DNA of 64,000 nucleotides from Ascidia mentula (taxonomy: Eukaryota; Chordata; Ascidiacea; Phlebobranchia; Ascidiidae). Within the stretch, counting starts at the first letter, position 1, and the number at the start of each line of letters is the position of its first letter. Positions 1,237-64,000 of this stretch are shown here, in pieces. The translations under genes were made by a program, and so were the position numbers. The notes beneath the pieces are model-generated. The model worked only from the letters and a program-made list of their open reading frames with translations, searched no databases and was not told the DNA's origin. Location: contig OX387202.1 of NCBI GenBank assembly GCA_947561715.1, forward strand, positions 20,845,001 to 20,909,000, read 5' to 3'.

Positions 1237-2718
1237 TTCGGTGACTGGAAATTCTATTTATCGAGTAATTTATTTCGAGTTCAGGAATCAATTCTACAAA
1301 ACTTCACTCTCTCCATGCCATCTACATTCTGCCATGGAATGCAACCGGCAGACGCATCAGACGCGTCTGTGTCCTCCACAAACTGCTGCGTTAAGTTTGG
1401 TTATTACACAAGAGTGTATAAGGTCTAACCTTGGGAGGTGACAAGAAAATGATTTGTAAAGGAAAGCCAAAGCTAGTATGCTACTCATGCCGAAGCAAAC
1501 GTTTCAAACACCACTGTGTTCATCATCAGTGCCAAGTAAGAATGAGTTGCAGCAACGTGTGCGCAGAGGGAGGCAGGTAACTGAACAGACAAAAACAACA
1601 ACACAAATGAAACACGTGACAGACGCCACTCGAAAGCCCACGGCCGTGACGTCATCATTTGGGCTGCAATGAGGACCTGGGTGTTGACAAGAAACCTTGT
1701 TACACAATTTACCCTCACATAAAACCTTTCCCATAAGTCGGAGAAATGGCGCCGCGATATCCGCACATTTCTGTAAATATTTGGGGTGAATTGGCGTGAC
1801 TGTATTTTGGGGTTTATCAGAGAAAGCCAAAATGAACTGAATCAAATTTACTGACATCCTCGAATCAGAAATCAACTGTCAAATCTGATGGATCAATGTT
1901 TATATTTACATGGATTATCAACATAAAGCATGGAAACGGTTGCATGCGATATTACAACAACGACATGATATACAAGGAATGATAAAACGGAATATGTTGT
2001 CAATATCTAATTGACACGTTGACATAATTCTATGGAAGAAGTGCCATCCGAAACACACAGAATGTAATAATAAGTAGTGTCGACGTCATATTTGCAATTA
2101 TTATGTTGTTTTTTTTCTGGCATCAACCGTTTTTTTATTAACGTCGGATAATAATCACGCTGTAAACCAAGTTTACCTCATTTACGGCGAACGTGCTATT
2201 CGTTCGTTGACACTTCCAGCAACAAGCCGCCTTTTCAAATGAGTCACGTGGTAATCCGAACTCAAATAACCCGGTATGCATTTTCTATATAGGCCACATG
2301 TCTTTTGCGTAAAAAAGATACGAAGGGACAGAGGACAAAGGACATATAGGACAGAGACATTTTGTACGCGTGGTTTGTAACGTGTTAATCCTCGTGCGCT
2401 TGTTTATTATATATTAAACTGATCGATTGACTGTGGGTTTGATAGCAGCCTTTTTATCAGGAGTCAGATATACGTCAGTGTTATTATTTGTGTAGACGTT
2501 TTAAGTAACGCCCTACAAATACCATGATAATAACAAACATGCAAAATGGCAAAGTTTTCGCTACTAACACAAAAACTGTAAGGATTTGTGAAATAAATTC
2601 GGTTCGGTATAATTGCTTTCCTGTTATTTACGATTTAAAGCCTTTATCAAAACTGGTGAAAGTATTTACAATGTCTGTCAATAATTGTCAATTAACACGA
2701 CGTTGCCATGGTAACTAA
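1237..2718. repeat. Dispersed repeat R, copy 1
   Basis: About 1.48 kb nearly identical to 6341-7822 and strongly similar to 39936-41166 and 21370-22030. It begins in the stretch with the short motif ATTCTACAAAACTTCACTCT and ends near CACGACGTTGCCATGG. The right half (about 2000-2520) has a TATATA box-like run, a later ATTAAA and a transition to CCCTACA, so a solo-LTR-like origin is possible but unproven. I see no convincing coding frame. It always sits at a joint between duplicated blocks. Confidence 0.75.
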
Positions 2719-2759
2719 CGACGCAATGTTAATTTTCGTCACTTAAACCTCCCCAACAA

Positions 2760-3345
2760 TTATTCGCATTTCACTTTCATCTTAGAACTCATTATTCCGC
2801 TCCATGAGTTTTTCCAATAATACCAACTCATAGTGTTGTAATCAGTAGAAGTTCTCGACCACGGACCATTGAGGTGGGCATCTGAACAACTACGATGCCA
2901 CCAAGCTCCACCATCAGTCACAGCACAATTACCTCCATACCTGCAATTATAATTAAGTCGGTTGTCAACAACTCTGTGTTACAACTGATTTAAACTCAGT
3001 TAAAACTTGTGTTTAACTAAAACTTTAACGCAACCGCCTGTTTCAGAGCAATTGATTTTTACAATTGTTGATTTAGGGTAGGCGGTTAACTTTGTCAACG
3101 AAAATCAACTATTTGAGGAAATGCATTTCATCTTTATTAAAACAACTCGATTTACTTCGTTAGTAAAACAGAAATATAATCAGACACGTTGTATCATTAT
3201 TACTCACGTATCACGGTCTCTGTTGCGTGTTGAAAATCTCATCCCGTTTAGATTGTGGTGCCCAGTCATGGAATCTCCTATATTCCCCGAATATCCGGAT
3301 ATAGTAATTGTGTAAGAACTTCCTTCATCGCCAATGCTGAAAGTA
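2760..3345 (-). CDS. Duplicate terminal exons of ficolin-like gene
   Basis: Two exons on the minus strand, 3345-3208 and 2940-2760, copy the last two exons of the ficolin-like gene at 8452-8315 and 8045-7865. Both keep length (138 and 181 nt), reading frame, splice sites (TTTTCAG acceptor, GTGAGT donor, TGCAG acceptor) and the stop. They encode the C-terminal part of a fibrinogen-related domain, with [28 protein letters not shown] and a final KVKCE. Compared with the upstream pair, the loop after GDSM reads TGHHNLNG instead of IRWINLNG, and RDRDT replaces RDNDA next to the usual Ca-binding segment. With no upstream exons of their own, they are either an alternative C-terminal cassette for the gene upstream or a fresh duplicate not yet decayed. 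I cannot tell which from sequence. Confidence 0.75.
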
Positions 3346-3379
3346 CTGAAAACAACAATGTCATAATGTTTAATTTGAT

Positions 3380-5285
3380 TAAAAGGCCGCATTCCTGCAG
3401 GCGGCGGAAAAGCTGTTCTAGGTGTAATTTATGTTGACTTGGGGAACTGCTGGCCACCAGTATGTCGTCCAGGTAAACAAAAACAAATGGTAATGATTGA
3501 CATACCTGGTCCATAAGCCGTTGAAAAGTCTGGGCTGCATTTTTCAGACCAAAAGGCATTCTTAAGAATTCAAACAGTCCAAACGGAGTTATGATAGCAG
3601 TTTTTTGGATGTCTTTCTCGGCAACAGGGACCTGGTGGTAGCCCCGAACTAGGTCGATCTTCGAAAATATCGTGGAGCCGGACAACCGCGATGTGAAGTC
3701 TTGGATGTGCGGAATGCTGTAGCGATCTGGCTGGGTGGACACATTTAGGCGGCGGTAGTCACCGCAGGGGCGCCATTCACCTGATGGCTTTGGAACCATA
3801 TGTAGTGGTGCGGCCCAAGGACTGGATGAACGACGAATGATACCCATTTGAAGCATCTTGGCAAACTCCGCTCTAGCGATTGCAAGCTTTTCGGGGGATA
3901 AACGACGTGCCTTTGCATGAACCGGTGGTCCAGTTGTGCAAATGTGATGCTGGACCTTGTGTCTGGGTACAATGCTGGAAAACTTCGGTGCAGTTAAAGA
4001 CGGAAATCGTGAGAGAAGTCTTGTAAAATCTTCAGTGGATGTGGTCAATTTGCAAATGCGCGACGATTTGTCATTTGTGGCCTTTATAGGAATGCTGACG
4101 AATGATGTTGAATGAACAAGGCAACTGTGGCGTAGGTCTACCAGCAAGGAATGTGCACGCAGAAAGTCGGCTCCCAGAAGAGGTTGCGATACAGCGGCAA
4201 GTATGAATTTCCAACGAAATTTGCCAGCTGCGAGTTCCAAGTTGAGTACCTTTTCCCCAAAAGTATTAATCCTGCTGCCGTTAGCTGCAATTAACTTGAT
4301 TCCTTTAGCTTGCTGTTGACGAGCAAGACGTGATGCCGGAAAAACGCTTACCTCGGCGCCTGTATCAACTAAGAAATAACGACGAGTGGTTTGATCCCAA
4401 ATGTGAAAAAGGTTATGAGCTTTGCCGGCCGATGAAGTAACTAACAACGGCCGGCTGACGAGTTTCCCTGGAAACTGCAGGGAGGTTGACATTTCTTTGC
4501 CTTTTCACCAAAGCGCTGATGGTAAAAACAAAGTCTCTGATTTGCTGCAGTGCGTGTCGATGCACGTGGAGACGCCGCGAGCATGTTGCGCTTGTCTACC
4601 TTTGCGACAGCCGTGAACGCGTGGCGCTCCTCGCTTCTTGCCTGCCAAAGAGTGGTAGCACGTCGTGCAAAAACACGTGGGTCGTCAAAATCTTCTTTTG
4701 CGAGTATAATTCGTATTTCTTCGGGCATCCTTTGCAGAAAGATATAACGAAAAAGGAAACACGGCTTATGACGGCCTAACAATGACAGCATCTCATCCAT
4801 TAATTCTGCTGGAGATCGGTCTCCAAGTTCAGATGCATGTAACAGTTTATGCGCTCTTTCATAATCTGAGCAGTCGTAAGTGTTTATCAAACGTTGCTTT
4901 AGGTAATTGTACTTATCGTGATCCGGTGGGTTTTCCAATAAATCCAATAGTCTACCGGCGCTTGCTTGATCCAGGGACGAAACAACGTAAAAATATTTCG
5001 TTTCATCAGCAGAAATGCTTCGTAGCGCAAACTGGGCTTCTGCTTGCTGAAACCATATTCTTGGTTGCTGTGTCCAAAACGTTGGCAGTTTCATAGCAAC
5101 TGCGTGCATGGCAGGAGTTTCTTCCATATCCTCAAACGTCAGGGGTCACCAATTAAAGCGGGTGCTTCGTAACGTGTATTTTCTGAATGCGCGTCGTTGC
5201 CAGAAAACGCTTAATTGTTTCGAGACACGCAGAAAATGGCAACACTAAAAGCAAAACTTATCACGCTTCAGTGAATTCAAGGGTG
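3380..5285 (-). mobile_element. Fossil Ty3/Gypsy retroelement, CsRn1-like
   Basis: Parts seen from 5' to 3' on the minus strand: a leader piece, a primer-binding site like tRNA-Trp (TGGTGACCCC, near 5150), a gag region (about 5127-4441) with a Cys-His-Cys-Cys motif, then a pol region with an aspartic protease ([10 protein letters not shown]) and a reverse transcriptase core ([20 protein letters not shown]). The CHCC gag motif and a tRNA-Trp primer are known marks of the CsRn1 clade. RNase H, integrase and a second LTR were not seen, so this is an incomplete, broken fossil with few visible breaks. It lies beside the duplicated ficolin exons and repeats at the left edge, so it took part in the 5.1-kb tandem duplication. 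Confidence 0.85.
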
Positions 5286-5289
5286 GCAT

Positions 5290-6340
5290 CCGCCACAACC
5301 TGGTCACTGTGATTAACTGCTATGGTGGCGCAACATGCGAAATCTACATCAACTCTTTCACCACTGCTGGAAAGGCAAGTAGAGCATTGCTGCAAATTGT
5401 AATGTCGAACACTCGGAAGTATTTCTTGTATAATTTTGAATTGTATTTTCTTCTGATGATCCGGTTTTGTTGGTTGGTGGCAAACATGCTTCTTTTTCAA
5501 TATTTGTTATTAAATTATGTTCTGCATTTTTATGTGTTCAGAAGCGTTTCGTTGTTTTAGTTACAAAATATTTTTACTTTAAATTAGAGGAGTTACTTTA
5601 GACAGTTTACGTCCAACTTTGGTGTTCAGGTTGTCCAGAAACTCCAGCATGGAATGAACGTGGAAGGGAATAAGAACACGTTCGCATTATTCGAACACAA
5701 GGGCGATGTTGACAGAGCGATTGAACCAAACACTTTCCTCGCTGATATCGTTGCAAAGTTCGAACAGTAAGTTGCCGTTCGAACTTTTTACTTTATTTGA
5801 GAAGTCTAGTTACAAATTCGTTGCAAGAAATTGGTCACACAGCTCAAAGAAGAAAATAAAAATATTATCGTACAAAGTAGATTTCGTAAATATTTAAAAT
5901 ATTTGAATTTTTTATCAAACATGGAAACTTGGGGTGTTACAAAATCATGTCGTTTGCATCTGACTACCAAATGTAGATGGAGGAGATTGAGAGGAATGCC
6001 GCAAGAAGACGCCGTGGTCAGTATCACAATAATCTCACTAAACAATAAGACTGGAGTTTTGTGTTATTGGATGTCGGTGCATCTCTGCCCGTGGTTGATA
6101 TTTATTGGCATTGTATTTGGGTGCTTGATGTTTAAATATTATTCGCATAATTTTATGTTCAGCATATTTCGCGTTCTCTTCATTCCGTCTAATTCCTTTT
6201 ATCTCAACAATTTGTTTCAGGCTGAATATGTTAACCTTGCACGTCGGTGGCCCGGATACGGATCCTACTTGTTTAAAGTTGAAAATCACGACGCGCAGTT
6301 CGGTCAAACCCTTCTCACTCTGGCGATATCGGCGCAGGTT
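5290..6340 (+). pseudogene. Myosin-X FERM-region fragment copy (unit 2)
   Basis: Second tandem copy of the 190-1236 mosaic, offset by 5104 bp and almost identical to it. It has the same internal joints: exon-19 end, whole exon 20 with intron, the unplaced 100-bp filler, exon-24 end, most of exon 25, then repeat R. Identical joints in both units show that the mosaic formed once and was then tandemly duplicated. The fragment lacks most of the FERM domain and all upstream domains, so no product is expected. Confidence 0.8.
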
Positions 6341-7822
6341 TTCGGTGACTGGAAATTCTATTTATCGAGTAATTTATTTCGAGTTCAGGAATCAATTCTA
6401 CAAAACTTCACTCTCTCCATGCCATCTACATTCTGCCATGGAATGCAACCGGCAGACGCATCAGACGCGTCTGTGTCCTCCACAAACTGCTGCGTTAAGT
6501 TTGGTTATTACACAAGAGTGTATAAGGTCTAACCTTGGGAGGTGACAAGAAAATGATTTGTAAAGGAAAGCCAAAGCTAGTATGCTACTCATGCCGAAGC
6601 AAACGTTTCAAACACCACTGTGTTCATCATCAGTGCCAAGTAAGAATGAGTTGCAGCAACGTGTGCGCAGAGGGAGGCAGGTAACTGAACAGACAAAAAC
6701 AACAACACAAATGAAACACGTGACAGACGCCACTCGAAAGCCCACGGCCGTGACGTCATCATTTGGGCTGCAATGAGGACCTGGGTGTTGACAAGAAACC
6801 TTGTTACACAATTTACCCTCACATAAAACCTTTCCCATAAGTCGGAGAAATGGCGCCGCGATATCCGCACATTTCTGTAAATATTTGGGGTGAATTGGCG
6901 TGACTGTATTTTGGGGTTTATCAGAGAAAGCCAAAATGAACTGAATCAAATTTACTGACATCCTCGAATCAGAAATCAACTGTCAAATCTGATGGATCAA
7001 TGTTTATATTTACATGGATTATCAACATAAAGCATGGAAACGGTTGCATGCGATATTACAACAACGACATGATATACAAGGAATGATAAAACGGAATATG
7101 TTGTCAATATCTAATTGACACGTTGACATAATTCTATGGAAGAAGTGCCATCCGAAACACACAGAATGTAATAATAAGTAGTGTCGACGTCATATTTGCA
7201 ATTATTATGTTGTTTTTTTTCTGGCATCAACCGTTTTTTTATTAACGTCGGATAATAATCACGCTGTAAACCAAGTTTACCTCATTTACGGCGAACGTGC
7301 TATTCGTTCGTTGACACTTCCAGCAACAAGCCGCCTTTTCAAATGAGTCACGTGGTAATCCGAACTCAAATAACCCGGTATGCATTTTCTATATAGGCCA
7401 CATGTCTTTTGCGTAAAAAAGATACGAAGGGACAGAGGACAAAGGACATATAGGACAGAGACATTTTGTACGCGTGGTTTGTAACGTGTTAATCCTCGTG
7501 CGCTTGTTTATTATGTATTAAACTGATCGATTGACTGTGGGTTTGATAGCAGCCTTTTTATCAGGAGTCAGATATACGGCAGTGTTATTATTTGTGTAGA
7601 CGTTTTAAGTAACGCCCTACAAATACCATGATAATAACAAACATGCAAAATGGCAAAGTTTTCGCTACTAACACAAAAACTGTAAGGATTTGTGAAATAA
7701 ATTCGGTTCGGTATAATTGCTTTCCTGTCATTTACGATTTCAAGCCTTTATCAAAACTGGTGAAAGTATTTACAATGTCTGTCAATAATTGTCAATTAAC
7801 ACGACGTTGCCATGGTAACCAA
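6341..7822. repeat. Dispersed repeat R, copy 2
   Basis: Tandem partner of 1237-2718 with only scattered single-base differences. It abuts the 3' end of the ficolin-like gene, whose stop codon lies at 7865-7867 on the other strand, so it may supply part of that gene's 3' flank. Confidence 0.75.
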
Positions 7823-25017: not shown

Positions 25018-25759
25018 TTTTTTTTTTTTTTTTGCTCAGTGACATTCATTTTACACAATTACGCTACCACAATACACATAAGAAGCAGAGCCAAAGGGAG
25101 CATAGCGAAAAGTTAAAAAAAACATGACAAATTACGTTGAGTACTTTAGACAGTATGCGACAATTAACTTTCATGCAAATATAAAGTATTTCTTTTTTTT
25201 TGCTAGGTTAATTCACAGTTACGTAGATTCTTCAAAAAAAGCACAAATTTCGTTAAGGTCGGGTTCGTTTCCGCGTATTTGCCACTGTAAATCACATATC
25301 TGGCGCAAAACAACGCACAATTTATAAAAAGTTGACTTGGCAAATCAGAATGCATTCCAAAAAGTTTTTCTGCATCTGTTAAAATTAAATTTTGTCTTAT
25401 TCTAGCACTTAAATATGAAATTACATCCTCCCAGTATACATTTACAATGGGGCATGAACAAAAAAGATGACACACAGTTTCCACTTGCTTCTTGCAGAAA
25501 ACGCACATGTTACTAATTACTTTCCCAAAAGAATGTAGTGGTTTGTTGGTTGTAACGGCATTGAGATTTAATTTAATTTGGATGCTTCTTAATTTGGTTT
25601 CTATGGTTGATTTGTAGACGTTCTTGTAAACAAGGGGCCATGGGGTGTCTTCCCCTAACCTTTTGTCCCAGATGTCTTGTGCTTTTGGTTTAGAGGCTTT
25701 ATTTTTCAGAATGGAATATATATCTTTTGTTTTGTTCAATGCATGCAACGTCTGAATTA
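25018..25759 (-). mobile_element. 5'-truncated LINE (L1-type C-terminus)
   Basis: A 742-bp insertion bracketed by a 14-bp target-site duplication AAGTGTCTACCGTT (25004-25017 and 25760-25773). A poly-T run at its left end is the poly-A tail of a minus-strand retroposon. The minus-strand frame encodes the tail of a LINE ORF2, including the Cys/His motif CVFCKKQVETVCHLF typical of the zinc-binding region after reverse transcriptase in L1-like LINEs. The reverse transcriptase itself is missing, as in a 5'-truncated insert. The paralogous site at 42300 is empty, so insertion came after that duplication. Confidence 0.9.
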
Positions 25760-26028
25760 AAGTGTCTACCGTTCGTAACACTGGGATGAAAATGTACGCA
25801 CAGCGGCACCACGTGGTCACTTTCCAGCATTACAAACGCGCCATTAAAGTAACTCGCCAACGAACAGTGATGTTTCCACTGCAGTCAGTACAGTTTAGCA
25901 GTTTAGTAATTGTAAGGGGACACAATTTTTGCCCCCTGTTGCATTTCATACCGATGTTTACGTTTGCACGCTTCAATGGTTTTTCGGGTGCTTTCCCTTA
26001 TATTTGATGAAACTGATTTCTGGTCAAA
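25760..26028 (+). promoter_or_regulatory. 5' flank of USB1-like pseudogene
   Basis: Shared with 42296-42567 upstream of the second USB1 fragment, so the duplicated block includes the original gene's flank. No TATA box stands out. Confidence 0.4.
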
Positions 26029-48520: not shown

Positions 48521-51500
48521 TGTAAAGGTGTGTGTGTGTTTCGAGGTGTACAATCTAAAGTACTTCTCCGATTATTGTGAATAGTGGTACGATGGTGCAA
48601 AAGGGACGGTGTTATCAGATGACTACAATTTTGATCCAATCTATCTATTATATATTGTTACGTAACAAAGTTTATCGTTGATTTAAGGAAGGTTAATAAA
48701 GCGATAGCGACTTGAATTTTTAGTATGTTTGTTATATGTCTCTTCTTATAATTTGTACCAAATTTCAAGTTTCTGCGACGTCTTCTTCATGGTTACGTAC
48801 AATTCCGCACTTGGTACCCTCTCTTGCCGCCAACGGCGCCAGAGTGCGTAGAAGTGTGTGTATGTTTCGAGATGTACAAACTAAAACACTGGTCTGATTA
48901 ATGTGAATTTTGGTACGATTGTACAAGAGGGACGGTGTTATAAGATGATTGTAATTTTGATCCAATCCATCTATCATCAACGTTGTTACGTCACAAACAA
49001 AAGTTTATCGATGTTCAAAAGAAGGTTAATAAAAAGGTAGCAACTTGTGTTTTTAGAATGTTTGTTATATGTCTCTTCTTGTCATTCGTACCAAATTTCA
49101 AGTCTCTGCGACGTCTTCTTCATGGTTACGTACGATTCCGCACTTGGTATCCCCTCTTGCCGCCATCGCCACCAGAGTGCTTAGAAGTGTGTGTATGTTT
49201 CGAGATGTACAAACTAAAACACTGGTCTGATTAATGTGAATTTTGGTACGATTGTACAAGAGGGACGGTGTTATAAGATGATTGTAATTTTGATCCAATC
49301 CATCTATCATCAACGTTGTTACGTCATAAACAAAAGTTTATCGATGTTCAAAAGAAGGTTAATAAAAAGGTAGCAACTTGTGTTTTTAGAATGTTTGTTA
49401 TATGTCTCTTCTTGTCATTCGTACTAAATTTCAAGTCTCTGCGACGTCTCCTTCATGGTTACGTACGATTCCGCACTTGGTACCCCCTCTTGCCGCCAAC
49501 GGCGCCAGAGTGCGTAGAGATATGTGTATGTTTCGAGGTGTACAAGCTAAAGTACTGGTCCGATTAATGTATAAATGGGTACGATTGTACAGAAGAGACG
49601 GTGTTATAAGATGATTGTTATTTTGATCGAATCCATCTATCATCAACGTTATTACGTAACAAACAAAAGTTTATCGATGTTCAAAAGAAGGTTAATAAAA
49701 AGGTAGCGACTTGAATTTTTAGTATGTTTGTTATATGTCTCTTCTTGTCATTCGTACTAAATTTCAAGTCTCTGCGACGTCTCCTTCATGGTTACGTACG
49801 ATTCCGCACTTGGTACCCCCTCTTGCCGCCAACGGCGCCAGAGTGCGTAGAGATATGTGTATGTTTCGAGGTGTACAAGCTAAAGTACTGGTCCGATTAA
49901 TGTATAAATGGGTACGATTGTACAGAAGAGACGGTGTTATAAGATGATTGTTATTTTGATCCAATCCATCTATCATCAACGTTGTTACGTCATAAACAAA
50001 TGTGTATCGTTGTTTAAAAGAAGGTTAATAAAGAGGTAGCGACTTGTGTTTTTAGTATGTTTGTTATATGTCTCTTCTTATAATTTGTACCAAATTTCAA
50101 GTCTCTGCGACGTCTTCTTCATGGTTACGTACGATTCCGCTCTTGGTACCCCCTCTTGCCGCCAACGGCGCCAGAGTGCGAGGAGGTGTGTGTATGTTTT
50201 GAGGTGTGAAAGGTAAAGTAATTCTCCGATTATTGTAAATTTTGGTACGATTGTGCAGGAGGGACGGTGTTATAAGATGATTGTAATTTTAATCGAATCC
50301 ATCTATCATCAACGTTATTACGTAACAAACAAAAGTTTATCGATGTTTAAAATAGGGTTAGTAAAGAGGTAGCGACTTGTGTTTTTAGTATGTTTGTTAT
50401 ATGTCTCTTCTTGTCATTCGTACTAAATTTCAAGTCTCTGCGACGTCTTCTTCATGGTTACGTACGATTCCGCACTTGGTACCCTCTCTTGCCGCCAACG
50501 GCGCCAGAGTGCGAAGAGGTGTGTGTATGTTTTGAGGTGTGAAAGGTAAAGTACTTCTCCGATTATTGTAAATTTTGGTACGATTGTGCAGGAGGGACGG
50601 TGTTATAAGATGATTGTAATTTTGATCCAATCCATCTATCATTAACGTTGTTACGTCATAAACAAATGTGTATCGTTGTTTAAAAGAAGGTTAATAAAGA
50701 GGTAGCGACTTGTGTTTTTAGTATGTTTGTTATATGTCTCTTCTTATAATTTGTACCAAATTTCAAGTCTCTGCGACGTCTTCTTCATGGTTACGTACGA
50801 TTCCGCTCTTGGTACCCCCTCTTGCCGCCAACGGCGCCAGAGTGCGAGGAGGTGTGTGTATGTTTTGAGGTGTGAAAGGTAAAGTAATTCTCCGATTATT
50901 GTAAATTTTGGTACGATTGTGCAGGAGGGACGGTGTTATAAGATGATTGTAATTTTAATCGAATCCATCTATCATCAACGTTATTACGTAACAAACAAAA
51001 GTTTATCGATGTTTAAAATAGGGTTAGTAAAGAGGTAGCGACTTGTGTTTTTAGTATGTTTGTTATATGTCTCTTCTTGTCATTCGTACTAAATTTCAAG
51101 TCTCTGCGACGTCTTCTTCATGGTTACGTACGATTCCGCACTTGGTACCCTCTCTTGCCGCCAACGGCGCCAGAGTGCGAAGAGGTGTGTGTATGTTTTG
51201 AGGTGTGAAAGGTAAAGTACTTCTCCGATTATTGTAAATTTTGGTACGATTGTGCAGGAGGGACGGTGTTATAAGATGATTGTAATTTTGATCCAATCCA
51301 TCTATCATTAACGTTGTTACGTCATAAACAAATGTGTATCGTTGTTTAAAAGAGGGTTAATAAAGAGGTAGCGACTTGTGTTTTTAGTATGTTTGTTATA
51401 TGTCTCTTCTTATAATTTGTACTAAATTTCAAGTCTCTGCGACGTCTTCTTCATGGTTACGTACGATTCCGCACTTGGTACCCCCTCTTGCCGCCAACGG

Positions 51501-51650
51501 CGCCAGAGTGCGTAGAGATATGTGTATGTTTCGAGGTGTACAAGCTAAAGTACTGGTCCGATAAATGTATAAATGGATACGATTGTACAGAAGAGACTGT
51601 GTTATAAGATGACTACAATTTTGATCTAATCCATCTATCATCAACGTTGT
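48520..51650. repeat. Right subterminal array, about ten 333-bp units
   Basis: Same unit as the left array in reverse orientation (CCATCTATCAT near 48966, 49300, 49633, 49966, 50299, 50632, 50965, 51298 and 51631, plus a diverged unit near 48644). Units 50060-50725 and 50726-51391 form a nearly identical 666-bp dimer pair. The right array is therefore longer than the left through recent local expansion. Confidence 0.85.
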
Positions 51651-52016
51651 TACGTCACAAACAAAAGTTTGTCGTCGATTTAAATAGGGTTAATATTTCG
51701 TTATCGCCTAGATTTTCAAGTAAGGTGGTTTGGTGACACTTGTGGTTGTCTGTGCAAAAAATTAAGTCTGTGCGACATCTCCTTCTGGGCGACATACAAT
51801 TGTTCACTTTGTGACATATTTACCGCCAACGGCGCTAATACGCGCTATGCTTAGCTTCATTTTTTTCTTATATTGCTTTTGGATACCCTTGTGGTTGATC
51901 GTAGGCAATTTCAAGCTTGTAAAATGTTTATTTTATTGAATAATCAATGAAGCGTAAACACGTATTTTCTTCGTTGCTGTTGTGCCTTTCGTCGCCTTTT
52001 CGATGCCTATAGGAGA

Positions 52017-52234
52017 CCACCGTCATTTCGGCGAAATGGAATTTGGTTAAAACCGAAATTATTTCACGCATGAATGAACACGGCTTCAAACAATTGTGTT
52101 CACACAAAATAAGCATTAACTCACGAAAAAAACAAAAATGAGTTGTAATAACAAACATTTCAATCAGCAAGGTGTCCAATATTTGCAAAACAATATCTAC
52201 ACTTTAAAATTGCAATTTTTGAACACCTATAAAG
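52017..52234. other. Spacer between transposon and satellite
   Basis: About 220 bp with no recognised feature; it lies between the right end of the 9-kb element and the first satellite unit. Confidence 0.4.
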
Positions 52235-55200
52235 TATATAACAACGAAATGGGTTTGACTGCGGTGTCGCTGTGTGAATCCCAGCATTCGCGTATTTTCG
52301 GCGCTGCATACAAGTGCCAATTTAATGATGTTCCGGGCCATAGGATTTTTTATAAATTGGTGGAGAATAGGCTCAGAACATGTAGATCACATTGCAATAG
52401 CGTTTTTTGAACACCTATAAAGTATATCGCAACGAAATGGGTTTGACTGCGGTCACGCTGTGTGAATCCCAGCGATCGCGTATTTTCGGCGCTGCATACA
52501 AGTGCTAATTTAATGATGTTCCGGGCCATAGAATTTTTTAAAAATTGGTGTAGAATAGGCTTAGAACATGTAGATCACATTACAATAGCGTTTTTTGAAC
52601 ACCTATAAAGTATATCGCAACGAAATGGGTTTGACTGCGGTCACGCTGTGTGAATCCCAGTATTAGCGTATTTTCGGCGCTGCATACAAGTGCCAATTTA
52701 ATAATGTTCCGGGCCATAGGATTTTTTAAAAATTGGTGCAGAATAGGCTCAGAGCATGTAGATCACATTACAATAGCGTTTTTTGAACACCTATAAAGTA
52801 TATCGCAACGAAATGGGTTTGACTGCGGTCACGCTGTGTGAATCCCAGTATTAGCGTATTTTCGGCGCTGAATACAAGTGCCAATTTAATAATGTTCCGG
52901 GCCATAAGATTTTTTAAAAATTGGTGCAGAATAGGCTCAGAGCATGTAGATCACATTGCAATAGCGTTTTTTGAACACCTATAAAGTATATCGCAACGAA
53001 ATGGGTTTGACTGCGGTCACGCTGTGTGAATCCCAGCATGCATGCGCATTGTTCGTCAAAGGCTTTGACTCAAACAGAAGGCAGTGAGCATTTGCGGCGC
53101 TGCATACAAGTGCCAATCTAATAATGTTCCGGGCCATAGAATTTTTTAAAAATTGGTGTAGAATAGGCTCAGAGCATGTAGATCACATTACAATAGCGTT
53201 TTTTGAACACCTATAAAGTATATCGCAACGAAATGTGTTTGACTGCGGTCACGCTGTGTGAATCCCAGTATTAGCGTATTTTCGGCGCTGCATACAAGTG
53301 CCAATTTAATAATGTTCCGGGCCATAGGATTTTTTAAAAATTGGCGTAGAATAGGCTCAGAGCATGTAGATCACATTACAATAGCGTTTTTTGAACACCT
53401 ATAAAGTATATCGCAACGAAATGGGTTTGACTGCGGTCACTCTGTGTGAATCCCAGCGATCGCGTATTTTCGGCGCTGCATACAAGTGCTAATTTAATGA
53501 TGTTCCGGGCCATAGGATTTTTTGAAAATTGGTGTAGTATAGGCTTAGAACATGTAGATCACATTACAATAGCGTTTTTTGAACACCTATAAAGTATATC
53601 GCAACGAAATGGGTTTGACTGCGGTCACGCTGTGTGAATCCCAGTATTAGCGTATTTTCGGCGCTGCAAACAAGTGCCAATTTAATAATGTTCCGGGGCA
53701 TAGGATTTTTTAAAAATTGGTGCAGAATAGGCTCAGAGCATGTAGATCACATTACAATAGCGTTTTTTGAACACCTATAAAGTATATCGCAACGAAATGG
53801 GTTTGACTGCGGTCACGCTGTGTGAATCCCAGTATTAGCGTATTTTCGGCGCTGCATACAAGTGCCAATTTAATAATGTTCCGGGCCATAAGATTTTTTA
53901 AAAATTGGTGCAGAATAGGCTCAGAGCATGTAGATCACATTGCAATAGCGTTTTTTGAACACCTATAAAGTATATCGCAACGAAATGGGTTTGACTGCGG
54001 TCACGCTGTGTGAATCCCAGCATGCATGCGTATTGTTCGTCAAAGGCTTTGACTCAAACAGAAGGCAGTGAGCATTTGCGGCGCTGCATACAAGTGCCAA
54101 TCTAATAATGTTCCGGGCCATAGAATTTTTTAAAAATTGGTGTAGAATAGGCTCAGAGCATGTAGTTCACATTACAATAGCGTTTTTTGAACACCTATAA
54201 AGTATATCGCAACGAAATGTGTTTGACTGCGGTCACGCTGTGTGAATCCCAGTATTAGCGTATTTTCGGCGCTGCATACAAGTGCCAATTTAATAATGTT
54301 CCGGGCCATAGGATTTTTTAAAAATTGGTGCAGAATAGGCTCAGAGCATGTAGATCACATTACAATAGCGTTTTTTGAACACCTATAAAGTATATCGCAA
54401 CGAAATGGGTTTGACTGCGGTCACTCTGTGTGAATCCCAGCGAACGCGTATTTTCGGCGCTGCATACAAGTGCCAATTTAATGATGTTCCGGGCCATAGG
54501 ATTTTTTAAAAATTGGCGTAGAATAGGCTCAGAGCATGTAGATCACATTACAATAGCGTTTTTTGAACACCTATAAAGTATATCGCAACGAAATGGGTTT
54601 GACTGCGGTCACGCTGTGTGAATCCCAGCGATCGCGTATTTTCGGCGCTGCATACAAGTGCTAATTTAATGATGTTCCGGGCCATAGGATTTTTTAAAAA
54701 TTGGTGTAGTATAGGCTTAGAACATGTAGATCACATTACAATAGCGTTTTTTGAACACCTATAAAGTATATCGCAACGAAATGGGTTTGACTGCGGTCAC
54801 GCTGTGTGAATCCCAGTATTAGCGTATTTTCGGCGCTGCATACAAGTGCCAATTTAATGATGTTCCGGGCCATAGGATTTTTTAAAAATTGGTGTAGTAT
54901 AGGCTTAGAACATGTAGATCACATTACAATAGCGTTTTTTGAACACCTATAAAGTATATCGCAACGAAATGGGTTTGACTGCGGTCACGCTGTGTGAATC
55001 CCAGTATTAGCGTATTTTCGGCGCTGCATACAAGTGCCAATTTAATAATGTTCCGGGCCATAGGATTTTTTAAAAATTGGTGTAGAATAGGCTCAGAGCA
55101 TGTAGATCACATTACAATAGCGTTTTTTGAACACCTATAAAGTATATCGCAACGAAATGGGTTTGACTGCGGTCACGCTGTGTGAATCCCAGTATTAGCG

Positions 55201-57535
55201 TATTTTCGGCGCTGCATACAAGTGCCAATTTAATGATGTTCCGGGCCATAGGATTTTTTAAAAATTGGTGTGGAATAGGCTCAGAGCATGTAGATCACAT
55301 TACAATAGCGTTTTTTGAACACCTATAAAGTATATCGCAACGAAATGGGTTTGACTGCGGTCACGCTGTGTGAATCCCAGCATGCATGCGCATTGTTCGT
55401 CAAAGGCTTTGACTCAAACAGAAGGCAGTGAGCATTTGCGGCGCTGCATACAAGTGCCAATTTAATAATGTTCCGGGCCATAGAATTTTTTAAAAATTGG
55501 TGTAGAATAGGCTCAGAGCATGTAGATCACATTACAATAGCGTTTTTTGAACACCTATAAAGTATATCGCAACGAAATGGGTTTGACTGCGGTCACTCTG
55601 TGTGAATCCCAGCGAACGCGTATTTTCGGCGCTGCATACAAGTGCTAATTTAATGATGTTCCGGGCCATAGGATTTTTTAAAAATTAATGTAGAATAGGC
55701 TTAGAGCATGTAGATCACATTACAATAGCGTTTTTTGAACACCTATAAAGTATATCGCAACGAAATGGGTTTGACTGCGGTCACGCTGTGTGAATCCCAG
55801 TATTAGCGTATTTTCGGCGCTGCATACAAGTGCCAATTTAATAATGTTCCGGGCCATAGAATTTTTTAAAAAATTGGTGTAGAATAGGCTCAGAGCATGT
55901 AGATCACATTACAATAGCGTTTTTTGAACACCTATAAAGTATATCGCAACGAAATGGGTTTGACTGCGGTCACTCTGTGTGAATCCCAGCGAACGCGTAT
56001 TTTCGGCGCTGCATACAAGTGCTAATTTAATGATGTTCCGGGCCATAGGATTTTTTAAAAATTAATGTAGAATAGGCTTGGAGCATGTAGATCACATTAC
56101 AATAGCGTTTTTTGAACACCTATAAAGTATATCGCAACGAAATGGGTTTGACTGCGGTCACGCTGTGTGAATCCCAGTATTAGCGTATTTTCGGCGCTGC
56201 ATACAAGTGCCAATTTAATAATGTTCCGGGCCATAGAATTTTTTAAAAATTGGTGTAGAATAGGCTCAGAGCATGTAGATCACATTACAATAGCGTTTTT
56301 TGAACACCTATAAAGTATATCGCAACGAAATGGGTTTGACTGCGGTCACTCTGTGTGAATCCCAGCGAACGCGTATTTTCGGCGCTGCATACAAGTGCCA
56401 ATTTAATGATGTTCCGGGCCATAGGATTTTTTAAAAATTGGCGTAGAGTAGGCTCAGAGCATGTAGATCACATTACAATAGCGTTTTTTGAACACCTATA
56501 AAGTATATCGCAACGAAATGGGTTTGACTGCGGTCACGCTGTGTGAATCCCAGCGATCGCGTATTTTCGGCGCTGCATACAAGTGCTAATTTAATGATGT
56601 TCCGGGCCATAGGATTTTTTGAAAATTGGTGTAGTATAGGCTTAGAACATGTAGATCACATTACAATAGCGTTTTTTGAACACCTATAAAGTATATCGCA
56701 ACGAAATGGGTTTGACTGCGGTCACGCTGTGTGAATCCCAGTATTAGCGTATTTTCGGCGCTGCATACAAGTGCCAATTTAATAATGTTCCGGGCCATAG
56801 GATTTTTTAAAAATTGGTGTAGAATAGGCTCAGAGCATGTAGATCACATTACAATAGCGTTTTTTGAACACCTATAAAGTATATCGCAACGAAATGGGTT
56901 TGACTGCGGTCACGCTGTGTGAATCCCAGTATTAGCGTATTTTCGGCGCTGCATACAAGTGCCAATTTAATGATGTTCCGGGCCATAGGATTTTTTAAAA
57001 ATTGGTGTGGAATAGGCTCAGAGCATGTAGATCACATTACAATAGCGTTTTTTGAACACCTATAAAGTATATCGCAACGAAATGGGTTTGACTGCGGTCA
57101 CGCTGTGTGAATCCCAGCATGCATGCGCATGTTCGTCAAAGGCTTTGACTCAAACAGAAGGCAGTGAGCATTTGCGGCGCTGCATACAAGTGCCAATTTA
57201 ATAATGTTCCGGGCCATAGAATTTTTTAAAAATTGGTGTAGAATAGGCTCAGAGCATGTAGATCACATTACAATAGCGTTTTTTGAACACCTATAAAGTA
57301 TATCGCAACGAAATGGGTTTGACTGCGGTCACGCTGTGTGAATCCCAGCATGCATGCGTATTGTTCGTCAAAGACTTTGACTCAAATAGAAGGCTGTGAG
57401 CATTTGCGGCGCTGCATACAAGTGCCAATTTAATAATGTTCCGGGACATAGGATTTTTTAAAATTGGTGTAGAATAGGCTCAGAACATGTAGATCACATT
57501 ACAATAGCGTTTTTTGAACACCTATAAAATATATC
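52235..57535. repeat. Satellite array, about 188-bp units
   Basis: About 27 head-to-tail units, each with GAACACCTATAAAGTATATC, TGGGTTTGACTGCGGTCACG and ATGTTCCGGGCCATAGGATT. The window after CCCAG varies in four types: TATTAGCG, CGATCGCG, CGAACGCG, and a longer CATGCATGCG form with about 40 extra bases (TTCGTCAAAGGCTTTGACTC). The long form occurs near 53036, 54020, 55380, 57117 and 57350, giving a loose higher-order pattern. The first unit is the most diverged. No unit encodes a convincing protein. It is not CRISPR: units are too long and there are no unique spacers. Confidence 0.9.
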
Positions 57536-57539
57536 TCAA

Positions 57540-59700
57540 CGATTATGTTATGTTAATTAAATATACCTCTTAGTATCACAATCTCCCCTTTTTTATTTCC
57601 GCCCACGCATAACAATGTAAATGTTGCGAAAATAAATCATTCAAAACATAAATGGAGGTATTTTCGAATATGTCCGTGTTTCGAAAATGTGTGGGATGAA
57701 TTTTAAGTGGCAACGTCGACGTTTAACTGATATCACATTACAGTGAATTATGTGGGTGAACGTTTTCATTGATTAAGTGACGATTCTTTATCTTGTGTGG
57801 CGTAGCAAAGCCCAATGGGGATTTAACAAGGCGTCAATGGTGCGTCGCAGCATACTCAGCTATTTAGCATCATTAAAAAAAAAAATTTAAGAAATTCCTG
57901 GGGGCATTGTGTGCGGCCGCACTTCCAACGAGGCATCTGTTGCGATACAGGTAAGTTGTTTAAAATTCATCTTTCTTTTCGTTTGCTAGAAACCATAGTG
58001 TTGCAGCTTCTCACTACTTGTGGGGCTGCTACGACGGTGGGTTGGCAAACTACAAACAAAATTTTTGTAATTAATGTAAATGATTTTACATTACCATTCA
58101 ATAAAAGGACACAAGGATACTTTTGGGCGGTAAAAAACGCTTTGAATTGTGTTTAAAGTCACATCCCAGTCAGAAAATTATCCCGGTATCACTCATGTTT
58201 TATCAAGCCATCATTAATTATCATTATAGATTTGCACCCCCAAATTCGGCAATAATTCTGGGATATATCCCCATGTTAATACATGAAAGGTAACACCTGA
58301 TCATGAATGAATATACTTGACCGTCATGAGTGAGAATATGGGATATATCAGATACTGCTCATGGATAATCACGCTAATGTCGGGTATAACCTAATTCTGC
58401 TGCATTTGCTTGAAAAAACGACATGCTCACACAATATATCTTTTCATAACTTTATTGAGAACCAAAACGAACATGTGAGCTCACAACGACATTGACCGAC
58501 TGCATTAAACCGGACAGAGCGTGTTTTTGGCGTCAGTCGCGGTCGACCTCGTCAAGAGGTTCCATAAAACTACCGCTTGAACTGGCGCATAGCCTTCAAC
58601 GTTTTTTCCCTCCGTCCCAGTCTTAGGTGTTGGAAAGCACTACCACGATTTCTTTGTTAATATTGGAATTTTTTAATCCTTTCATCCCATAAATTGTAGA
58701 GAATCTGCAAAAAAATCAAAAGTATAAATCAATTAGTTCTGGTTGTGTGATGTGACCGCCATCACGACCAGTGAATGTTGGTGCTTAATGGGGTGTGAAA
58801 CGATGAACAATGGCATAACAAAGCCGTGCGTATAAGGGAGTCCCAGTGGAATAACGCTCCACTTTACCCGTGGTTATGTTCAGTAACAATAATGTAAAAG
58901 ATTTCCAAATCCTTACCTAACAGTTTGAAGAACAGCTTTGTGTCTTGAAATGCTTTTTTGCTGTGATGGCGCTGATTACCAACTCAAGTCCCCTCCGTGA
59001 ATAGGCATTCTTCTTTTGTTGATTTTTTCTTCTTGCCCACTTGTTTTCTTGATAATTTGTCACAAGGTTTGTAGAAACTCATATTGCTTTTAGTGCGAGG
59101 CATTTTGCTAAACACTTGAAAAATTAAAAGTAGCTAATCCTGCGAAAACAATTATATTTGTATACCGGTAGCCTAGTAAACATTTAGCCCGACGCCACGC
59201 ATGGTAGCATCGAACATTAACTCAGCAAGTACCTCACCTAACATCCTTCCTTTTGGCGACAACAAAACTAACAGGATACAAACTCACCTTTTTGCACTAA
59301 TTACTTGCTTGGCCTTAAGCACCTGAGCCGAAGCTTTTATTAATTTGATACAAATACGTATTTCAGTAAGCGTGGCTTATTTCACTGTTAACAAGCAACA
59401 CTTAAAAAGTTAGAGCATCCTTTTTGTCCCAACTTTCTATAACTTTGTGGCGCACATATTTGGCGCGATTTTTTTCAAATTGAATTTTGAAAAAGGGGGT
59501 GACGTCACACACCACCGGCTGCGGCACAGATTGGGAGTTAGCTTGAGGGAATGTGGTGATTCGCTGACGGTTATATCGTAAGCGAACAAAGGAATTGTTG
59601 CGCATTTGTTGGGGGAGGGCATCTAAATTCGGCCGTTAATGTCTGGGCGATGGAAACTTTGCGCTGAATATGGAGACACCATGGCTTGTAATGCATAATT
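57540..59700. other. No gene recognised
   Basis: A 2.2-kb stretch with short open frames only. The 57911-58156 and 59402-59605 frames show no domain. No RNA gene could be supported. Confidence 0.4.
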
Positions 59701-59709
59701 GGTAATGCA

Positions 59710-60066
59710 ATGAATTGTATATATTCTATTATTTTACAATGCCTTGATTGCAGTACTCAAACCGAAAGACCTAAATCATTATATTGTCCAAACCCTAAGA
59801 CCCATAAAATCAGTAAGAACATGGAATTAAATGGTCGGGAATTGCCTAAATTCGTGATTACTCAAATGAAACAAATCCGAAAAAAGATAAAATTTGCGCA
59901 GCCAAACAGTCAATACCATATATTACGAGATTTATTCCATATTTTCGTCAGATTACCACAGGGCTTGTGGTATAATTTGGGAATAAATCACAAAAAAATA
60001 GTTTACTTGTCATATGCGTGTCAACGATATGATAAACTTCCGATCTTTATTGCCGACAATCAGTGA
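59710..60066 (+). CDS. Hypothetical 118-residue open frame
   Basis: An open frame starting MNCIYSIILQCLDCSTQTER and ending FIADNQ, basic in the middle (QMKQIRKKIKF). It is not recognised. It could be an exon or a degenerate piece of the element that encodes the large minus-strand frame next to it. There is no transcript-type evidence and the start is arbitrary. Confidence 0.2.
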   Translation: MNCIYSIILQCLDCSTQTERPKSLYCPNPKTHKISKNMELNGRELPKFVITQMKQIRKKIKFAQPNSQYHILRDLFHIFVRLPQGLWYNLGINHKKIVYLSYACQRYDKLPIFIADNQ

Positions 60067-60069
60067 TAA

Positions 60070-60655
60070 CGCCTTTCCGTGACAAACTAGGAAAGATCAC
60101 AGATAGCCAGTGGTCTCCATTAATGATTCAGTGATACGACTGGGATAAAGTTTGACTGGGATAAGCTTGTGCAAAAATAATTTTACAAACATATTGTATC
60201 ACTTGCCGGTATTTGTTTAAAGCCACTACACCACGTCAAGGTTCCGGCAACCGTAGTGGATTTATTTTAAAGATTTAACAAATAAACAGTTATTTGGCAG
60301 ATTGAAGTTGGAGTTTAAAGTTAAAGCAAGTTCTAATAAGATTTTAGCATAAGTAGACCACGGCCTTTAAAATTATTGGGTAAAATAACATATCTGGCCT
60401 TACATTGATTAACGCAACAACGATTTTAAGTACAAGAGGTTTGTCCTAGCGGCAAATGCAAAAAATATAAGATTAACACAAAAACAAAACATTCACAGCA
60501 TAATTACGATTACTACAACTTAAGGCATGCAACGACCCAAACAACACAAATATTTTTTTGGTTTCACGTTGGTGAAGTTTTAAAAAGTCTCATACAACAA
60601 ACATACAGTCACGGGAATGAACACAAATCGACACAAAGTATTCACAACAACATGG
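60070..60655. other. 3' flank of the two-protease frame
   Basis: No gene seen. AATAAA-like runs on the minus strand are not distinct. No terminal inverted repeat was found within the window to bound the element. Confidence 0.35.
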
Positions 60656-60658
60656 ATT

Positions 60659-63600
60659 TTATAGATTTTTGTACATCAGTGCAGGAAAACCAAGCTTAAG
60701 AGAGGCATCTTCGTACGTAAAATTATTAAATTTCATTACGTACAGAATTTCTGCCTCAAAATTGAGTATTTGACACAAAATAAACCTGGATTTTATCTTT
60801 TTGTCCAACACTATATGTCCCAACATGGTATGTTTACTGATCAACTCAGGTTTTAGCACAAAATCAGCAATAGATTCTCGAAAAATTTGTGTCCCCACGA
60901 GTTGTTGTCGGATAAGGAGTTGACAAAAGGAGAACTCTACAAATCTCCAAAGGTTCATATGGACATTTGCCGATAATATTTGTTGCCGTACAGTTCGATT
61001 ATACATTATAAGGCTTTTAGTGTGTTCCCGGTAACATAAACAAAGGCGGTAACAATCTGTCCGGAACTGACCTTGTTCAAACGTCTGAAAAAGAACTGTT
61101 TTGAGCTGTTTCGCAACGAAATCGTAGATATCTTTAATGTCTGAAGATAAATCGTCCAATTCCGAAATTTCAACATCTTTACCGTTAACTTGTTGTTTTA
61201 AAGTAATATTTTTATAAACCAGGCATTCGGTTGATTTTGCTGCCTCTTCGTTGAAGCGGCGTCGCTTCCGACGAATTACAATCTTTGGTTGCTGGTTAGG
61301 ATCGTGAAGGTTAGATTTAACTCTTTTGTAAAATAATGTACAACAACCAGTAAGAATTCTTTCTTTAACACTAGCCCAAGTGACGTGTTTTAAAACTGCG
61401 TCATCAAATTCAGTTAAACCAGATTCACAAAATTGATACGCCACGTAGTGACCCGAGCTTAAACTGTCTCCAATGTGCACGAGAACGGACACTAACTGAA
61501 AAGAGAAATGTTGCGAAATATGTAAAACCTGATTTGGAACGATTCTTCTCTTTCGTTTGTGGCCATCCACATTTCTGTGAAGTCCAATACACAATATATT
61601 CGAAACATCAGTGATCTGGCCTTCCATATTTGTGGTAGCTTGTTTATGACAAAAGGGGCATGTCCTAAATGCCGTGTTTCGAAACTCAGCATCACAGTAT
61701 GTGGCCAGATCACTATTGTCAGCAATGTTATCGGCAACAGGCAACGTCAGTAGAGATTGTTCTTGCACTGACTCGGTAACATTACCACAGGACTGGCAAG
61801 TTGCAGATGTTTTGTACTGAAAACACATGTTAAGATTACAGTATTTTAAAATAGAGCTAAAATCAAATACCATTAAAAATTCATTTGGGTCTTGTTGCTG
61901 ACCCAACTTCCAGCCAAGTGCGCCACATACATCTTTGACCAACTGCAAGTACAAGTTGTTATCTGATTGTTTGAGATAGAGGCGACAAATGAAGTTAGCG
62001 ATTCTTTCTCGTAAAGTTTCACCGATGGTGGCCACTGGAATCTCATCAAATAAACATTGGGCTGCTTGAAACAGACTACTTAACCAACAGTTGTTGTGAA
62101 CATTAGGGAGACCCAGCTGGACCAAACTATTTTTCTTCAAAAATAGTGCAACTTTGTCGCTGCAACTTGCAGAGTCTTCAACTAACGCGTATAACATCCA
62201 AATGCGAAAGCGCGCAACAACAAATTCCAATTCACTTACCTTCAGTACATAGTTTGTAATGGTGTCAACAGTAAAACATGCACATAAGCCGCAACTTGAC
62301 AAATCTTCCTGCTCAACTAGTGAGCTGTTTTTCTGTATGATTTCATTGCTTGTGAAAAGGCATAAAATCGGTATCAAGTTTTTCCTAATTAAACTTGATA
62401 ATTGTCTGCTGGACCCCGGAGCTGAATTAAAAAGTATCAGTTCTCCATTAACCTGTTTAAACCATAAAACCACAAAATGTCGCTCGAACAATGTTGGAAT
62501 GAAAATATTTTCGCACAATTTTTCTCCAAAAAACATTCCATGGCATGCCCTTCGTATGTTTTTTAACTTCTTTCCACTCAGTATTTCACCTGCTAATACG
62601 GTTGAAAGAAAACCAAACTTACCAGGGTGTACGGAATTAGCATTTCTGACTGTTCTGGAAATATAACAATCTACTACATTATTCGTTAACCATCCAATCG
62701 TTGCATCATTATGAGTGTTGATTGGATTTTGAGTTAAAGAGATATAGGTTTTACCTCTAGGTTTACTGCAAAGCGAACACAAATCCAACCATGACAGTGA
62801 CTCACCAGAAGGCGTGACTAAAGCTGTATTAAAAATAGAAGTGGGAGTAAATGGAATAAGATGCCAAACATAGTAAGCAAGATCCTTGCACGATGTATGA
62901 ATTTCGCTGTGATCTGGACAAAACGTAAAACGTGGCAGAACTGGGGTGACAATAAGTTTTTCGAATTTTTGAGAGGAATCGCATGGCTTATTTGCGTATT
63001 TCAGATTTTGAGAAAACGTTTCTGAAGAGTAAAAACTTTTCTCTTTTCTTTTTCTCTTTTTGAATTTAGATTCTACCACCTGCGTACGCTTGACAGCATC
63101 CGAAGTGACATTTGTACGTCTACCAGGCTTGGTATATAAATGTGTAATGGAATCTGCAAATAATTTTTGTAAAATTAGTATTGATTCATGATATTTAATG
63201 ACAAATTCATCTAATCGCGCAACTCTTTTTCCGTCTAATATGTTTGATTTCAGGTCACCAAAATGCTCTTCGATTATTCCTTGCGTTTGATTGTTCTGTA
63301 AAATGGTCTGATGTTTACAATTTTTTAACAAGTTACATTTTCTTGAGTACATATTAAACAGTTGTTCCTGTTGATAAGTGGTTTTTTCTTTGTTTATATG
63401 TCGGGATAAATCCCCCAGCAGTAATTTTGATGTAGCACAAATTCTACTCAAAATTATTTCTATTACACGTGCACAAAATGTTGGGTTGTAATACACATTT
63501 TTACTGGTACTTGTATTGAACTTCTGGGACACATCCGACTTCAAGTAGGAGTCAAGCTTGCTTCGATATCTGAGATAAAAAGGTGATTGGCGTTCTTGCA

Positions 63601-64000
63601 GTTTATCTGAATGCTTGGATGTGTAAACAAAATCGGAATTAGAAACAAAACATTCGCCTTCGTTTATGTCGCAGTCGGCTTGGTCAGAAAATACCTTTTC
63701 TTTTAAACGCTTAAAATGAAGTTCCACTAATGATGAAGTGGATTCGTTATTGGTTAAAACTATAAAACTTTCCACCATACTATCTAGTTCAAAAATAGTT
63801 ACACAACAAAAAAATGCATTAATCCAATACAAGTATGTTTTCAGGAGTTTTTTATTTTCACTATACTTGTTGCATAGCACTTTAGCTGCTTTCATGGCAT
63901 GGCTATAGCAATTGTGCACGAAAGTTTCTTGCATGTCATTCTTCAACGGAACTCCTGTAACAATACGGTAACATCGGTTGTAAAAGGTCAATCGTGTTTC
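60659..64000 (-). CDS. Ulp1-like + USP-like double protease, partial
   Basis: One uninterrupted frame of at least 1110 codons, open at the window edge, so the N-terminus is missing (counting residues from 63991). Residues about 205-275 (GIIEEHFGDLKSNILDGKR) resemble the tail of DNA-transposon transposases. Residues about 430-585 fit a Ulp1/C48 SUMO-protease fold: His505 in ERHFVVLW, Asn522 in ILFNSAP in the Asp position, Gln561 and Cys567 in QEDLSSCGLC. Residues about 625-895 fit a USP/C19 deubiquitinase: Cys635 in GLPNVHNNCWLSS, QQQDPNEF, zinc pairs CQSC (732-735) and CPFC (778-781), His848 in SSGHYVAY, FDD (862-864). A basic stretch IRRKRRRF (906-913) may be a nuclear signal. With no intron and two Ub/SUMO proteases, it looks element-borne rather than a host gene. 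Catalytic residues are all present. Confidence 0.8.
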   Translation of the reverse strand, partial: ETRLTFYNRCYRIVTGVPLKNDMQETFVHNCYSHAMKAAKVLCNKYSENKKLLKTYLYWINAFFCCVTIFELDSMVESFIVLTNNESTSSLVELHFKRLKEKVFSDQADCDINEGECFVSNSDFVYTSKHSDKLQERQSPFYLRYRSKLDSYLKSDVSQKFNTSTSKNVYYNPTFCARVIEIILSRICATSKLLLGDLSRHINKEKTTYQQEQLFNMYSRKCNLLKNCKHQTILQNNQTQGIIEEHFGDLKSNILDGKRVARLDEFVIKYHESILILQKLFADSITHLYTKPGRRTNVTSDAVKRTQVVESKFKKRKRKEKSFYSSETFSQNLKYANKPCDSSQKFEKLIVTPVLPRFTFCPDHSEIHTSCKDLAYYVWHLIPFTPTSIFNTALVTPSGESLSWLDLCSLCSKPRGKTYISLTQNPINTHNDATIGWLTNNVVDCYISRTVRNANSVHPGKFGFLSTVLAGEILSGKKLKNIRRACHGMFFGEKLCENIFIPTLFERHFVVLWFKQVNGELILFNSAPGSSRQLSSLIRKNLIPILCLFTSNEIIQKNSSLVEQEDLSSCGLCACFTVDTITNYVLKVSELEFVVARFRIWMLYALVEDSASCSDKVALFLKKNSLVQLGLPNVHNNCWLSSLFQAAQCLFDEIPVATIGETLRERIANFICRLYLKQSDNNLYLQLVKDVCGALGWKLGQQQDPNEFLMVFDFSSILKYCNLNMCFQYKTSATCQSCGNVTESVQEQSLLTLPVADNIADNSDLATYCDAEFRNTAFRTCPFCHKQATTNMEGQITDVSNILCIGLHRNVDGHKRKRRIVPNQVLHISQHFSFQLVSVLVHIGDSLSSGHYVAYQFCESGLTEFDDAVLKHVTWASVKERILTGCCTLFYKRVKSNLHDPNQQPKIVIRRKRRRFNEEAAKSTECLVYKNITLKQQVNGKDVEISELDDLSSDIKDIYDFVAKQLKTVLFQTFEQGQFRTDCYRLCLCYREHTKSLIMYNRTVRQQILSANVHMNLWRFVEFSFCQLLIRQQLVGTQIFRESIADFVLKPELISKHTMLGHIVLDKKIKSRFILCQILNFEAEILYVMKFNNFTYEDASLKLGFPALMYKNL

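Follow-up and report, generated by a model that had tools for sequence, protein, structure and literature searches.

What kind of gene joins a SUMO protease-like and a ubiquitin protease-like domain in a single product? The question is raised by a long open frame at the edge of a 64,000-nucleotide stretch of the genome of the ascidian Ascidia mentula (the window, C70:20845001–20909000, where C70 is the contig that holds it in an assembly of 196 Mb and 79 contigs). A preliminary description, made from the letters of the window, had proposed that this frame encodes a Ulp1-type (C48) protease followed by a USP-type (C19) protease. The frame is probably the main gene of a family of large cut-and-paste DNA transposons in this tunicate, with a proposed role in deconjugation; the domain architecture and the transposon identity are themselves close to certain.

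The frame and its copies

Encoded on the minus strand, the frame extends ~2.5 kb beyond the end of the window, to C70:20911520 (Table 1). In its extended form it comprises 1953 codons without a stop (L009:1662–7520:-), and its protein is referred to here as P0001; adding 843 to the residue numbers of the preliminary description gives P0001 numbering. The proposal of one frame with both protease domains is borne out, as they belong to a single 1953-codon product and the pair is kept across subfamilies.

Five full copies of the frame are found, that in the window being copy A. Identity to copy A across the 5862 nt of the frame is 99.93% for copy B, 99.69% for copy C and 99.56% for copy D; for copy E it is 99.44%, with four gap openings. 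The 1953-codon frame is kept in copies A–D and frameshifted in copy E. Dispersed copies, 99.4–100% identical, lie on four contigs. A genome search with P0001 gave 361 candidates, of which the best 24 loci were scored, and the counts are a lower bound. There are at least 34 match rows across these 24 loci, and in 17 of them both proteases are read through unbroken from a start before residue 500, in open frames that range from 1562 to 2596 codons; one further locus is unbroken through both proteases from residue 839. The protease pair is thus kept in one frame across divergent intact subfamilies of the same genome. Because there are five near-identical copies as well as these intact divergent subfamilies, a chance origin of the frame is untenable.

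Table 1. Features of the transposon within the window (window positions; residues in P0001 numbering)
Feature	Position	Strand	Basis or remark
Transposase–protease frame, 3' 1113 codons and stop	60659..64000	-	Open at window end
Transposase core, C-terminal part (841–1130): C871xxH874, E1084	63131..64000	-	Invariant in alignment
Ulp1/C48-like protease (~1201–1460): GWLT 1276–1279, H1348, N/D1365, Q1404, C1410	62141..62920	-	Alignment, profile matches
USP/C19 protease (~1463–1735): C1478, Q1543–D1544, C1575/C1578/C1621/C1624, H1691, D1707	61316..62134	-	Pfam, alignment
Conserved C-terminal region (1736–1953), basic RRKRRRF near its start	60662..61315	-	No Pfam family above cut-off
8-bp target-site duplication, TATAGGAG (plus-strand letters)	52008..52015		Adjoins low end of element
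Terminal inverted repeat, outer part, tip 5'-ACCACCGTCATTTCGGCGAAATG	52016..52199		Same tip at both ends
188/232-bp tandem repeat array inside inverted end	52200..57542		Unit orientation reversed between the ends
Nested insertion, 1996 bp, short inverted ends CCCAGTC	58165..60160		In copy A; absent from copies C and D

The two protease domains

The prediction of a C19 protease is secure by Pfam. The UCH family is matched in all seven dual-protease members (best E 2.9e-11 among the subfamily representatives, matched in 6/6); in P0001 the match covers residues 1470–1720 (E 1.3e-9, 38.5 bits), and in L049, a deep subfamily, it reaches 78.6 bits against a cut-off of 23.9. A profile of the USP region retrieves 45 USP-type chains from the PDB at E up to 0.01, the closest solved proteins being USP12, USP46 and USP36, and USP36 in the case of L049. 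The Cys box, QQDxxEF-like motif, zinc pairs and His box that had been read from the sequence are all present in the six representatives, each of which carries C1478, Q1543–D1544, the four zinc cysteines, H1691 and D1707. The catalytic Cys, His and Asp are invariant in all seven sequences with a USP. In L049 the second Gln of QQD is Asn, and the Cys box is near-canonical.

The C48 assignment holds at profile level, through remote-homology methods. A profile of the Ulp1 region, compared with the PDB at E up to 10, matches SENP1 chains only (E 0.0028 and 0.0029), and this match aligns the His, Asp, Gln and Cys. Comparison by hhalign with the C48 frames of L055 and L056, two loci of MULE transposons in the same genome, gives 92.7%, or 95.6% when L049 is added, with negative controls at 0.1% and 0.3%. 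The Pfam C48 model is passed at the same place in 3/3 distant relatives scanned (L046–L048; L050, broken by a stop, was left out). The preliminary description had expected profile searches to return C48 here; plain Pfam does not do so in any of the six representatives, and it is at the level of SENP1 and hhalign that the expectation is upheld. Of the residues it named, H505, Q561 and C567 (H1348, Q1404 and C1410) stand, being invariant in 6/6 representatives and in 10/10 aligned sequences; the position of N522 (N1365) is split between Asn and Asp.

Transposase core and remaining regions

From its N-terminus P0001 consists of a PHD finger, a Cys/His-rich region, the transposase core, the Ulp1-like domain, the USP domain and a C-terminal region. 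The PHD finger (residues 342–383, Pfam E 3.7e-7) is matched in 6/6 representatives, and nothing in P0001 other than PHD and UCH exceeds the Pfam cut-off; NCBIfam likewise gives no transposase match for P0001. The transposase-like core lies between these two domains. Its putative D-D-E residues D751 and D825, encoded beyond the window end, and E1084 are invariant, together with C871xxH874, in 10/10 aligned sequences, three of which (L046–L048) are close to each other.

Selection on the regions of the protein was estimated as the ratio of non-synonymous to synonymous substitution rates (dN/dS, by NG86) from the L016/L017/L019 pairs only, the other three of six pairs being at or near synonymous saturation. 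The ratio is 0.17–0.19 for the zinc-finger/DDE part, 0.09–0.16 for the PHD finger, 0.32–0.42 for the Ulp1 region and 0.23–0.37 for the USP. With values below 1, both proteases are under constraint, and this is weaker than the constraint on the transposase.

A strongly hydrophobic, membrane-like segment, odd for a transposase, precedes the PHD finger in five of seven dual-protease representatives (residues 64–120 of P0001 and the corresponding stretches near the N-terminus of L015, L016, L017 and L019); neither the L018 line nor L049 shows it. Upstream of the conserved part there are in-frame tandem arrays of 51- or 57-bp units (0% indels) in L015, L016, L017 and L019, and 15 in-frame units of 17 or 18 codons in the L018 line (L018 and L060), which suggests that the units are translated as an N-terminal repeat region.

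Element ends and target site duplications

Extending the contig past 64 kb, as the preliminary description had advised, brought to light the transposase-like core as well as inverted ends and target duplications. Copy A spans C70:20897016–20917227 (20.2 kb, a 2-kb nested insertion included). The twin of its 8-bp duplication lies beyond the window at C70:20917228–20917235, the 8 bp being identical at both tips, and the outer 215 bp of the two ends are 99.07% alike. A counterpart of the repeat array, inverted, occupies C70:20912216–20917043 at the other end of the element, so the coding part is flanked by 188/232-bp repeat arrays in opposite orientation.

A search of the genome with the element end gave 137 candidates, of which the best 40 were scored; 14 facing pairs were recognised by position among them, and 12 of these 14 were read at their junctions. 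Identical 8-bp flanks are present in 12/12, although in two the right end had to be displaced by 1 bp. Seven of these pairs bound long elements (the five copies, a divergent one of 20 kb and one of 31 kb); the other five bound derivatives of 0.8–5.4 kb, which have the same ends and are too short to hold the frame. Terminal inverted repeats and a target duplication of fixed length (8 bp), by which cut-and-paste transposons are recognised, are therefore both found. Since near-identical copies carry target duplications, mobility is likely to be recent.

Two observations concern individual elements. The 31-kb element (C71:810486–841778; L057, L058) shares these ends and is flanked by an 8-bp duplication, and the 20 kb of it that were read contain the 188-bp repeats as well as 77-bp and 190-bp satellite arrays, with no frame longer than 150 codons. 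The 1996-bp insertion in copy A, beside which AT is duplicated, is a nested second transposon; this insertion and its plus-strand frames were considered as parts of the gene and rejected, as they are absent from copies C and D.

Relatives and history

The distant relatives in the same genome have transposases 26–27% identical to that of the main family, and hhalign gives 99.9% for the comparison. In L046–L048 the transposase is followed by C48 and a C-terminal PHD finger, and a scan at E up to 10 gives no UCH match; L049 and the main family have the order PHD, transposase, C48-like and C19. The simplest account is that C19 appears to have been gained by an older transposase–C48 protein, as judged from these domain orders; alternatively, C19 may have been lost in the line of L046–L048. 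Because the trees of the single domains have only one well-supported inner branch each, they leave the shared inheritance of the three domains unproven.

At the MULE loci L055 and L056 the MULE match is followed ~1.7–1.9 kb downstream by a C48 match in a frame of its own, and L056 ends in PHD-like sequence. A scan of viral contigs with the transposase profile returned 24 pattern matches and no relative, and a search of phage records with P0001 gave no match.

Role of the proteases

Hosts are known to form heterochromatin in a SUMO-dependent way and to turn proteins over through ubiquitin, and a transposase that carried both deconjugases to the ends of its element could for this reason escape both pathways. 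In the mechanism proposed here, the protein would bind the ends of the element and its D-D-E core would cut the DNA; at the same place the C48 domain would remove SUMO, and the C19 domain ubiquitin, from the transposase, from histones or from silencing or repair proteins. Transposition would in this way escape host silencing or degradation. That both proteases are catalytically competent is quite likely, judging from their motifs. Local counter-silencing or stabilisation as their purpose is put forward tentatively, with somewhat less than even confidence. The preliminary description had suggested that the protein may protect its transposase or the chromatin of the element from SUMO/ubiquitin control by the host. 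It is more doubtful whether the elements form an undescribed superfamily of giant transposons, in which SUMO and ubiquitin proteases would jointly counter silencing that depends on SUMO and removal that depends on ubiquitin at the element; the USP would be a later addition to a transposase–Ulp1–PHD lineage that persists in the same genome.

Several results weigh against the interpretation as a transposon gene with two working deconjugases. The transposase core has no Pfam match in the ten proteins and no PDB profile match. Pfam PF02902 (C48) matches none of the seven dual-protease members at E up to 10, and no dual-protease locus is among the 87 Pfam C48 matches in the genome. P0001 alone, searched against the PDB, gives 38 matches, all to the PHD region, with no SENP and no USP. 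Position 1365 is Asn in three of the six representatives and Asp in the other three, and the USP Cys box is divergent, reading NNC where the usual box is GNTC. Lastly, dN/dS is higher for the proteases (0.23–0.42) than for the transposase (0.17–0.19).

A possible, though rather unlikely, alternative is that the proteases act in repair, trimming SUMO or ubiquitin where the donor site is broken, which would steer or calm repair after excision. Bao and co-workers, in the part of their paper available (PMC2836005), proposed a repair role for the Ulp1 and OTU domains of transposases, and fusion to a transposase would place protease activity at the break. The PHD finger, however, points to chromatin, which fits repair and counter-silencing alike.

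It is a little less probable that either domain, or both, has lost activity and serves as a module that binds SUMO or ubiquitin and so tethers the transposase to modified chromatin. The Asn for Asp at 1365 in half of the representatives and the divergent Cys box of the USP are what this idea would explain; yet none of the 10 aligned sequences departs from the Ulp1 His, Gln and Cys, the USP triad of Cys, His and Asp is kept in 7/7, and the deep subfamily L049 has a Cys box close to the canonical form. Processing of the giant protein itself, in the manner of a polyprotein, such that the transposase would be freed, is improbable: the single product of the 17 unbroken loci is very long and has two cysteine-protease domains in its C-terminal half, but C48 and C19 enzymes are deconjugases of ubiquitin-like proteins. 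A spliced host gene family, suggested by a large conserved multidomain protein with chromatin-type domains and named in the preliminary description as what would overturn its view, hardly deserves further consideration given the terminal inverted repeats, the 8-bp duplications, the dispersed near-identical copies on four contigs and the short derivatives with the same ends.

Several kinds of transposase carry ubiquitin-like proteases, according to the part of PMC2836005 available. The dual-protease copies, which are probably recent, occur beside relatives that have C48 only, and they thus offer a natural series in which each protease could be removed in turn and the effect on excision, integration and silencing measured.

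Other features of the window and the mitochondrial code

Minus-strand frames at positions 727–6532 of the window encode a reverse transcriptase (3281–4492, E 1.1e-27) and a DUF7041 domain (4444–5127), and are flanked by two plus-strand frames of 233 codons, 5104 bp apart; the region is probably a retroelement with long repeats. A frame of the zf-RVT family at 25206–25820 (E 2.9e-10) is probably the remnant of a second one. Just outside the transposon, at 48522–51695, lies a tandem array of a 333-bp unit in 9.6 copies.

In the same assembly the cox1 gene (contig C79) is open under invertebrate-type codes, and reading AGA/AGG as glycine gives the expected glycines in MIGGFGNW, the usual glycine context of cox1. 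This reading of AGA/AGG is that of the ascidian mitochondrial code, a tunicate trait, and it marks the host as a tunicate.

Comparison with known systems

The transposase shares two traits with MULE elements: a CxxH motif between the second D and the E (C871xxH874), which is a criterion for MULEs, and a target duplication within the range of 8–11 bp (8 bp here). Neither Pfam PF10551 (MULE) nor PF18758 (KDZ) is matched at E up to 10 in the ten proteins. Alignment by hhalign of the core with MULE cores of the same genome gives 0.1–0.6%, a result that says nothing either way because a positive control, two Pfam-positive MULE groups aligned with each other, reaches only 1.0%; one weak MULE alignment puts the two Asp motifs in register.

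For the two protease domains the closest solved relatives are SENP/Ulp1 and USP36, USP12 and USP46, whose catalytic residues match. SENP/Ulp1 and USP enzymes are, however, separate host enzymes without a transposase.

Among transposons, Ulp1, OTU and PHD domains, as well as one transposase–C19 protein, are already in print (PMC2836005, seen in part, as is also the case for the comparisons drawn from it below). Ginger1 resembles the present family in that its transposase carries an Ulp1 or OTU domain on the C-terminal side, and one of its listed families also has a PHD finger. It differs in that its core is a Gypsy-type integrase, that it carries either Ulp1 or OTU whereas Ulp1 and USP occur together here, that its elements, where their length is given, measure 2.6 to 7.1 kb, and that its duplications are such as CCGT (PMC2836005). 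MULEs carrying Ulp1 have also been reported (PMC2836005). In the present genome such loci share the pairing of transposase and Ulp1, and in L056 the C-terminal PHD as well; L055 and L056 differ in that no USP is seen in them and that transposase and C48 are in separate frames.

Rehavkus, compared by its description only, likewise has a PHD finger in the transposase protein, a minisatellite beside the inverted end and a single frame (PMC6446971). Its duplications are 9 bp in contrast to 8 bp here, its inverted ends are 26–400 bp long compared with ~5 kb in copy A, and the available part of its description mentions no protease (PMC6446971). The Trichomonas protein XP_001314237.1 joins a transposase_11 domain to a C19 peptidase; it belongs to another transposase family and to a protist, and the available part of the source mentions no C48 in it (PMC2836005).

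A literature search of openly licensed papers found no report of C48 and C19 in one transposase. The earlier view that the tandem is unusual therefore stands for the combination, and not for either domain singly, since each has been reported in transposases in the available part of PMC2836005. What is new here is the joining of C48 with C19 in one transposase protein.

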